Source: Puniceicoccaceae bacterium | GTDB lineage: Bacteria; Verrucomicrobiota; Verrucomicrobiia; Opitutales; JAFGAQ01 | Direction: 5' to 3' | Assembly (NCBI GenBank): GCA_028285755.1 | Contig: JANQOQ010000015.1 | Span: 62,001-126,000 of the forward strand | DNA: 64,000 bases | In this document: piece after piece, positions 14,069-16,784 of the stretch | How the letters are laid out: every line of letters starts with the position of its first letter | Numbering within the stretch: the first letter of the stretch is position 1 | Notes under the pieces: model-generated | Seen by the model: the letters and a program-made list of their open reading frames with translations, nothing else | Told to the model about the DNA's origin: nothing | The model's database searches: none | Position numbers and translations under genes: made by a program

Positions 14069-14815
14069 ATGGACCCTAAAGAGGTAAAGGCTTACTACAT
14101 GCAGGAGGACGTGGTGCATCACTATGCAGTGGCTGTCGACCAGGTTGGGCTGTGGAAAAGTGAGGAATTGCTGTTCAAGCGCTATTTTGATCCTGAGGAA
14201 TCTTTGCTGGAGTTAGGTTGTGGGGCAGGCAGGATTACCTTTGGTTTGCATCAGTTGGGTTACGGGCGAATAACTGCCATGGATTATTCCAAGAAGATGG
14301 TGCAGATTGCCCGGGAAATTAGTCGCATGAAGCGCCTAAAACTCGGTTTTCACTCGGGGGATGCTGCAAATCTGAAATATGGGGATGCCGAGTTTGCAGG
14401 TGCAATCTTTGGCTTTAATGGTTTGATGCAGATACCGGGAGCTGACCGGCGGCAAAACGCGATGCGAGAGATCTTTCGCGTGATCCGGCCCGGCAGCTAT
14501 TTTATATTTACAACCCATGACCGGGAGAATCCCAAGCATCGCAAGTATTGGACTCGGGAGCGCAAGATTTGGAATGCGGATAAGCAGCATGCCGAGTATG
14601 ATGATTTTGGAGATCGCATCGGCGGTACTCCCTGGGGGGAGATGTATATCCACATTCCGCACAAGAACGAGGTGCGGGATGCATTGGTAGATGCGGGCTT
14701 TGATCTTATCAACAGTAGCCCGCGTGCTATGGTCGCGAATGAAAGCCGGGCAGTACGCGACTTTTCAGATGAGTGCTTGTTCTGGGTGGCTAAAAAGCCG
14801 GAAGCTTTTGGGTGA
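14069..14815 (+). CDS. Class I SAM-dependent methyltransferase
   Basis: The 248-residue protein has a Rossmann-type SAM site LLELGCGAGRITFGL (motif I), an acidic DYSKKMVQIA after strand 2 and the post-motif FNGLMQIPG. These assign the methyltransferase_11/25 type but not the substrate. There is no signal peptide. Its last 26 bases overlap the end of dapF on the other strand. Nothing in the context narrows the substrate. Confidence 0.85.
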   Translation: MDPKEVKAYYMQEDVVHHYAVAVDQVGLWKSEELLFKRYFDPEESLLELGCGAGRITFGLHQLGYGRITAMDYSKKMVQIAREISRMKRLKLGFHSGDAANLKYGDAEFAGAIFGFNGLMQIPGADRRQNAMREIFRVIRPGSYFIFTTHDRENPKHRKYWTRERKIWNADKQHAEYDDFGDRIGGTPWGEMYIHIPHKNEVRDALVDAGFDLINSSPRAMVANESRAVRDFSDECLFWVAKKPEAFG

Positions 14816-15653
14816 TTACAGCAGGGTCCATTGAAAAGGTGCCAACCGGGGTAACCGGGCCCAGCATTTTGATGTTCCAATTATCATCGATGGTGATGGA
14901 GAGTGTTCCCCCGGGCATGTGCACGGTGATATTTCCATCGCAATGACCGAGCTTTTTGGCGATTACCGCAGCTGCCGAACTACTGGTGCCTGATGCGAGT
15001 GTATAACCTGCGCCCCGTTCCCAGATCTCGATCTGGATATTGTTGCGGTCGATCACCTTGAGTAGCTGCATATTGATACGATTGGGGAATGCCGGGTGAT
15101 TCTCAATATGCGGGCCCATTTGGTGGGCGAGATCCGCGCTGATTTCCTCGAGCGGGATAACACAGTGCGGATTCCCCACCGAGACACAGCAGCCGGTAAA
15201 TGTACCGATTGACGTATGGAAGAAGTGATTAATGACTTCAAAATCGGGATGATCATTATTCACCGGAATATCCCGGGCCATAAATATGGCCTCACCCATG
15301 CCGACATCGATAAGCTCACCCCCTTCGAGGATTTCAGCAGATACGACTCCGCCGAGTGTTTCTACGGAGAAGGGTATATTCTCCTTCACCATACCTTGAT
15401 CATAAAGGTAGCGACAAAAAATACGCAGCCCGTTACCGCTTTTCTCCGCTTCGCTCGCATCGGGATTAAAAATGCGTAATTTAAAATCGGCCTGTGCCGT
15501 ATCCAGCGGCCCCAGCAAGATACCATCTGAGCCCAGGCCATAATTGCGGTGGCAGATCCTGATGATTTCATCTGCATTTAAATGCTGATTGAGTTCTGCC
15601 GGATTTAGGACAAGATAATCGTTTCCCAGCGCATGGTATTTTTGAAACTGCAT
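14790..15653 (-). CDS. dapF: Diaminopimelate epimerase-like protein with Ser/Ser active site
   Basis: By family this converts LL- to meso-diaminopimelate for lysine and peptidoglycan. The 287-residue protein has the DapF fold markers KYHALGNDYLVL, GSDGILLG, the GNPHCV turn, WERGAGYT and HMPGGTL. Both positions that carry the catalytic cysteine pair are serine: Ser72 in SEAEKSGNGLR and Ser221 in TLASGTSSSA. The codons are AGC and TCA, so this is not a single-base reading error. The start is the ATG at 15653; an upstream alternative at 15719 would run into the next gene. It may be a variant epimerase or a racemase with another substrate. Confidence 0.85.
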   Translation of the reverse strand: MQFQKYHALGNDYLVLNPAELNQHLNADEIIRICHRNYGLGSDGILLGPLDTAQADFKLRIFNPDASEAEKSGNGLRIFCRYLYDQGMVKENIPFSVETLGGVVSAEILEGGELIDVGMGEAIFMARDIPVNNDHPDFEVINHFFHTSIGTFTGCCVSVGNPHCVIPLEEISADLAHQMGPHIENHPAFPNRINMQLLKVIDRNNIQIEIWERGAGYTLASGTSSSAAAVIAKKLGHCDGNITVHMPGGTLSITIDDNWNIKMLGPVTPVGTFSMDPAVITQKLPAF

Positions 15654-15703: not shown

Positions 15704-16729
15704 TTAATGCGCCAACCACTTTATCCAGCGTCCATGGTAGTCCACCTCAGCCAGATTGATAAACGATTTCCTGCCCGAATAATATAAATCCGAGTCGAGG
15801 TTTAGCCCGTGCAGATAGTTGCTGATATGGATGAGATCCCGCTTGGAGCCTAAGTCGTCAATGACCTGGATTAGCGATTTTCTCTGATCTTCGGTCAACT
15901 GATTGGCCATGAAGGTATGGAAAATACACGGGAGCGTATCTTCGGGAATGGAGTCCAGAATGGCGGGTAAGTCAGTCAGCGCATTGCCTTGGCGAAGATC
16001 AAGATTCACATGGCTTATGTTATTTGCGGCTGCGGCCAGTAGTTCACGTCTCGATTTCTGACCGGGCCAGAGTAGTGCAAGCAGCCAATCTACATTGTCG
16101 GGTACGGATGCATCTACAGGGTTTAAATCCAGGCCAATCCTCTGGTTTATTTGAGGAGGTTTTCCGGCTATAGCAGTTGGTATGTTTCCACTAAACTCGG
16201 CGTTGATTTTAACCGCTGACCGGACATTGCCATAAGTACAGGTTGTGCCGTAATGATAGTAGTAATGATCCCACGCCAGGTTAAACCCAGCACTGCAACC
16301 CAGCTCGATCAATGCAAGCGGGTGTATCGGAAATTTTTTCACCGCATATAAAAAGGAGGGGAGCAAAAATGAGCACCTTCGCACTTCGTTGGTCTGCACG
16401 AGGCGTGTTTTGAGGATATGTATGATGTCAGCTTCATTAGAGAGAGTGAATTCGCGAAAGAGGGAGTACGCCTTTTCGGGAGCTTTCGTTTGTTCAGCCA
16501 GAGATTCATAATATTCACTTAACGGGTGTAGAGGGTTTTTAATGAGCAGGTAGTGCACGGAAGCCAGCAGCAGATTGGGAATGGGCTGTTGATTTTTCGT
16601 TTGTGCAGCAATACGTAGTATCGATTCATCCTCGGCGATCGCATGGCATAAATGAAAATAGAGATCCGATGAATCCTTGCAGTATAGATCGGCAAATTTA
16701 TGGAATTGGTCGTTGAGTGGACGTGGCAT
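15704..16729 (-). CDS. DUF2332 family protein
   Basis: Resembles the DUF2332 family (PF10094), whose function is unknown. From the ATG at 16729 it has 341 residues. The motif IELGCSAGFNLAWDHY looks like a SAM-binding glycine loop, and DLNPVDASVPDNVDWLLALLWPGQ is typical of the family, as is the late CIFHTFMANQLTEDQR. A methyltransferase-like activity is therefore possible but unproven. A TTG at 16774 could extend the N-terminus by 15 residues, but that would leave almost no space before the divergent polymerase gene. Confidence 0.8.
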   Translation of the reverse strand: MPRPLNDQFHKFADLYCKDSSDLYFHLCHAIAEDESILRIAAQTKNQQPIPNLLLASVHYLLIKNPLHPLSEYYESLAEQTKAPEKAYSLFREFTLSNEADIIHILKTRLVQTNEVRRCSFLLPSFLYAVKKFPIHPLALIELGCSAGFNLAWDHYYYHYGTTCTYGNVRSAVKINAEFSGNIPTAIAGKPPQINQRIGLDLNPVDASVPDNVDWLLALLWPGQKSRRELLAAAANNISHVNLDLRQGNALTDLPAILDSIPEDTLPCIFHTFMANQLTEDQRKSLIQVIDDLGSKRDLIHISNYLHGLNLDSDLYYSGRKSFINLAEVDYHGRWIKWLAH

Positions 16730-16784
16730 AGGCTTTTCTGAAAGTATATTTGATCTTTTAGAAGTTTTTGCCAATGCTCAATGT

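Follow-up and report, generated by a model that had tools for sequence, protein, structure and literature searches.

Can a diaminopimelate epimerase (DapF) work with serines in place of its two catalytic cysteines? Enzymes of this class are described as working by a cysteine thiol/thiolate pair (review PMC8142540; PMC12039745), and one gene in the 64,000-nucleotide stretch of Puniceicoccaceae DNA analyzed here (the window) encodes a DapF homolog with serine at both positions. An earlier note on this DNA had suggested that the protein might be a serine-based variant epimerase, a racemase of another substrate, or dead, with another enzyme making meso-diaminopimelate (meso-DAP). From comparisons of sequences and gene content, we conclude that it is probably the working diaminopimelate epimerase of its genome and belongs to a native Ser/Ser clade that is sister to the Cys/Cys DapFs.

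The gene and its two serine sites

The gene occupies positions 14,790–15,653 of the minus strand (864 nt, 287 aa), with an ATG start at 15,653. Alignment to solved DapFs places Ser72 (codon AGC, 15,438–15,440, minus strand) at catalytic Cys73 of the Haemophilus influenzae enzyme (KSGNG against QCGNG) and Ser221 (codon TCA, 14,991–14,993, minus strand) at catalytic Cys217 (LASGTS against QACGSG); the reading frame, coordinates and residues agree with those that the earlier note had given. Each serine lies within a signature of the clade, also on the minus strand: EAEKSGNGLRIF (residues 68–79, 15,417–15,452), in which Lys71 and Ile78 are clade-specific, and ERGAGYTLASGTSSS (residues 212–226, 14,976–15,020), in which Glu212 and Arg213 are common to DapF and Tyr217 and Ser224 are clade-specific. 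The window protein thus lacks the two catalytic cysteines that characterize DapF, and it departs from the PROSITE signature N-x-[DN]-[GS]-[SENGFT]-x(4)-C-[GI]-N-[GA]-x-R (quoted in PMC8225329), reading NPDASEAEKSGNGLR, with Ser replacing Cys and Ala66 replacing Gly/Ser. Among the PDB DapF sequences compared, serine occurs at these sites only in the engineered H. influenzae mutants C73S (2Q9H) and C217S (2Q9J); these resemble the window protein in having Ser at one site, but they are man-made single mutants studied as crystal forms, whereas the native clade combines both serines with re-made surroundings.

The rest of the fold had been described as well kept, and the scores and the structural model agree. 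The window protein scores 235.4 bits on the TIGR00652 DapF equivalog model, over the cut-off of 114.65, and matches PF01678. Its AlphaFold model (pLDDT 94.1) predicts the two-domain DapF fold, has DapF crystal structures as its best structural matches (Z ~33–36), and places Ser72 and Ser221 immediately before helices 73–85 and 222–234, where the DapF cysteines stand at the helix N-termini.

The window protein also has the residues that bind both carboxylates and both amines of DAP. N11, N63, G73, N74, N161, N194, E212, R213 and G222 (N11, N64, G74, N75, N157, N190, E208, R209 and G218 in H. influenzae DapF) are retained in essentially all of the 122 distinct Ser/Ser sequences described below; Gln44 is Gly in Ser/Ser sequences, as it is in most of the Cys/Cys DapFs compared. 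The clade-specific and nearly invariant residues include Tyr6, Ser42, Lys71, Ile78, Gln196, Glu209, Tyr217, Ser223 and Ser224, with Thr at position 223 in the window protein, and many of the clade-specific changes cluster around both catalytic sites. Two reduced genomes lack Lys71 while retaining both serines (L154, L155), so this residue is helpful at most. Compared with DapF (TIGR00652, PF01678, EC 5.1.1.7; H. influenzae 1GQZ/2GKE, Anabaena 9MRO), the window clade is alike in fold, DAP-binding residues, helix-N-terminal catalytic positions and presumed genomic role, and differs in the Ser/Ser pair and in the clade-specific residues listed. Because the gene fits DapF in bit score, fold, DAP-binding residues and genomic place but lacks the defining cysteine pair, we file it under a Ser/Ser variant clade. 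A Cys/Cys DapF subtype in the same order (GVEDETLACGTG; L140–L152, L250–L252) apparently has Val at DAP-binding Asn157 (H. influenzae numbering), which the Ser/Ser clade retains.

Directly upstream on the same strand, ~50 nt from dapF, lies a DUF2332 gene (15,704–16,774, minus strand) that may be co-transcribed with it; we did not count this neighbor as functional evidence, since the relative L003 has no such gene upstream. The 3′ end of dapF overlaps by 26 nt a convergent SAM methyltransferase gene (14,069–14,815, plus strand), to which we draw no functional link. The Ser/Ser DapF had no match in plasmid records.

Extent and conservation of the Ser/Ser clade

The first 60 relatives were collected by scanning genomes with peptide patterns that left out both catalytic sites, and all 60 had Ser at every readable catalytic site, down to ~50% identity. 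After genomes of the order and phylum were added, the set comprised 122 distinct Ser/Ser and 43 distinct Cys/Cys sequences, with the Ser pair invariant in 122 of 122 Ser/Ser-clade homologs. This invariance, in a set whose first 60 members were found with site-excluding patterns, indicates that the pair is neither sequencing error nor chance. Both serine codon families (AGY and TCN) are found at each catalytic site, yet the residue is always Ser, and dN/dS between near pairs is 0.02–0.13, indicating strong purifying selection. The only mixed pair seen was a Ser/Cys DapF (L153, 309–1,211; genome G034), which comes from a 1-Mb genome of the order and sits on a very long branch.

The Ser/Ser sequences form one clade apart from Cys/Cys DapF. 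In a tree built after removal of 23 catalytic-site columns, the split between the two types is perfect, with support of 100/99. Identity between the Ser/Ser clade and Cys/Cys DapFs is mostly 28–41%; all sequences read at identities of ~46% and above were Ser/Ser and those at 41% and below, leaving aside the order's reduced genomes, were Cys/Cys.

The clade spans much of the window's order and is also found in Cyanobacteriota, Bacillota, Desulfobacterales, Chloroflexota and others. A Ser/Ser copy stands beside a Cys/Cys copy in Mastigocoleus, Spirirestis, Sporomusa, Pelosinus and Desulfotruncus, and in two Desulfobacterota MAGs, a Clostridium MAG and a gammaproteobacterial MAG. The clade may thus serve different functions. 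Contexts were mixed at ten loci from other phyla, with no shared neighborhood theme pointing to another substrate. In the gammaproteobacterial MAG, the Ser/Ser gene falls in the order leuD-dapF-leuB-asd (L054, 2,904–8,088), and in Sporomusa malonica it is directly followed by a gene for an isomerase of the PhzF family, which belongs to the same fold superfamily (L053, 4,917–6,791).

The meso-DAP step in the window's genome, its order and its phylum

The window's genome, 97% complete, has one DapF only, the Ser/Ser one. Homology search of this genome found no second dapF and no TIGR01921 match for meso-DAP dehydrogenase (Ddh), leaving neither of the enzymes that the earlier note had proposed as makers of meso-DAP in its stead. 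That note had associated a decaying paralog with a Cys/Cys dapF elsewhere in the genome and an unconserved Ser pair, and we find the reverse, a sole DapF whose Ser pair is invariant. DapL is present (660.6 bits on NF004937, cut-off 585; the same protein falls under the cut-off on TIGR03542), as are a LysA homolog just under its cut-off (280 bits, cut-off 297.9) and a MurE bearing DNPR. The product of DapL is LL-DAP. The dapL bypass that had also been considered is therefore ruled out on biochemistry, and the presence of DapL makes an epimerase more necessary. DapL, the LysA homolog and the DNPR-type MurE, together with the lack of Ddh, suggest that LL-DAP is made and meso-DAP presumably needed, and judging from gene content the Ser/Ser DapF would occupy the step from LL-DAP to meso-DAP.

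We sampled 103 genomes of the order, of which 88 were at least 90% complete and 79 of these 88 had a DapF: 65 Ser/Ser, 10 Cys/Cys, one with both (G064), one Ser/Cys (G034) and two unread (G069, G087). Of the nine near-complete genomes that lack DapF, five had a Ddh scoring over its cut-off, compared to three of the 79 with DapF (Fisher p = 1.6e-4, kinship not corrected); the five belong to two genera (G016, G038, G053, G081, G102). Families f7 and f24 and genus f13/g67 have a Cys/Cys DapF in place of the Ser/Ser one, and in the rest of the phylum all six genomes without detected DapF carry Ddh (G132, G137, G149, G170, G204, G239). Since each replaces another across these genomes, Ser/Ser DapF, Cys/Cys DapF and Ddh appear to be interchangeable. 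In ~59 near-complete genomes, the Ser/Ser protein is the sole DapF, Ddh is lacking and MurE is over its cut-off; in Coraliomargarita sp. SDUM461004 and Cerasicoccus maritimus, both cultured, the sole DapF is again a Ser/Ser protein and Ddh is lacking.

Neither DapF nor Ddh was detected in the near-complete order genomes G044, G061, G075, G080 and G377. G044, G061 and G075 are ~1-Mb genomes that retain MurE. G080, a single contig of 2.3 Mb, had no match for DapF, Ddh, LysA or MurE, and G036, of the same genus, has a Ser/Ser DapF and neither a true MurE nor LysA. Members of this genus may have lost peptidoglycan synthesis, or the assemblies may have gaps.

Alternative readings, mechanism and meaning

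Of the options raised earlier, the serine-based variant epimerase is the best supported and the dead or decaying paralog is contradicted. Several observations count against the epimerase reading: changing a single catalytic cysteine to serine in DapF relatives all but abolishes or greatly reduces their activity, the configuration of wall DAP in Opitutaceae is not established, and there are the genome lacking MurE and LysA (G036), the two-copy genomes and the genomes with neither DapF nor Ddh. Three alternatives were weighed.

The first, which we consider unlikely, is that the protein is a conserved pseudo-enzyme or regulator that binds DAP without epimerizing it, the bacteria living on LL-DAP accepted by MurE and by a divergent LysA. 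The DNPR motif of MurE is not known to distinguish LL- from meso-DAP. LysA scores under the curated cut-off in most Ser/Ser genomes, but families with a Cys/Cys DapF, f7 for example, have a LysA of this low-scoring type too. Mutants of relatives point the same way as this alternative: Cys-to-Ser changes leave PddB with <0.1% activity, a result also cited there for Mycobacterium tuberculosis DapF (PMC8225329), and the activity of HisR mutants is greatly reduced (PMC11602996). DAP was detected by GC/MS in hydrolysates of Opitutus terrae and Lacunisphaera, with low total DAP; TLC of Lacunisphaera, which the authors credited with a DapF, gave no DL-DAP, and the DAP configuration was not fixed (PMC5303756). 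Our Ser/Ser readings in Opitutaceae come from two MAGs (L026, L038). Against life on LL-DAP, the missing gene is replaced within the order by Ddh or a Cys/Cys DapF, which make meso-DAP, and the context of the catalytic sites is invariant under strong purifying selection.

It is likewise improbable that the clade racemizes or isomerizes another amino acid, or acts on a DAP-like compound by beta-elimination or dehydration, with meso-DAP coming from an unrecognized enzyme. Substrate can change within this fold, as in HisR, CntK, PddB and O-ureidoserine racemase; the first three are Cys/Cys enzymes. The distantly related proline racemase superfamily, which includes trans-3-hydroxy-L-proline dehydratase, shows natural replacement of the cysteine pair, with Cys-Thr, Ser-Cys and Ser-Thr types, the last annotated as hydroxyproline dehydratases (PMC4364671); these types differ from the window clade in substrate and in catalyzing dehydration. 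That Mastigocoleus, Sporomusa, Pelosinus, Desulfotruncus and others have a Ser/Ser copy in addition to a Cys/Cys DapF also favors a change of substrate, and this explanation would apply above all to such second copies in other phyla. However, PddB lacks most DAP distal-site residues (PMC8225329), whereas the Ser/Ser clade retains those for the distal carboxyl and amine (N63, N161, N194, E212, R213). The mutual replacement of Ser/Ser DapF, Cys/Cys DapF and Ddh within the order also speaks for the DAP step. Finally, a decaying paralog or artifact, suggested only by the departure of both catalytic residues from the textbook, is so improbable that we regard decay and sequencing error as ruled out, given a single copy, a pair invariant in 122 sequences across phyla and in isolates, dN/dS of 0.02–0.13, and the fact that Ddh or a Cys/Cys DapF takes over in genomes lacking the gene.

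If the Ser/Ser protein is an epimerase, gene content suggests that it would turn the LL-DAP from DapL into the meso-DAP that LysA and MurE use. The substrate would be buried by domain closure, one serine acting as base on the alpha carbon and the other returning the proton, and the base serine might be aided by the helix dipole, backbone amides and the clade-specific Lys71, Tyr217, Ser224, Ser42 and Gln196. We give an even chance to the serines themselves transferring the protons; alternatively, they may do no more than hold a water or another residue in place.

The open-access papers searched contained no description of a native Ser/Ser DapF or epimerase, and automatic annotation would label these proteins DapF without flagging the change from Cys to Ser. 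The case is evenly balanced for a broader proposal, that cofactor-independent amino-acid epimerases include a large natural class that uses a Ser/Ser base/acid pair and supplies meso-DAP to whole bacterial lineages, overturning the view that this chemistry requires a Cys thiolate. A native Ser/Ser clade at the DAP step would matter for inhibitor design, because aziridino-DAP compounds alkylate the catalytic Cys (PMC12039745), and for a long-standing question, namely whether the peptidoglycan of subdivision 4 Verrucomicrobia is ordinary. It would also offer a direct test of the Cys-pair rule and, if active, a two-serine epimerase in many bacteria would challenge the textbook two-Cys mechanism of a step in making an essential building block of the cell wall and lysine.
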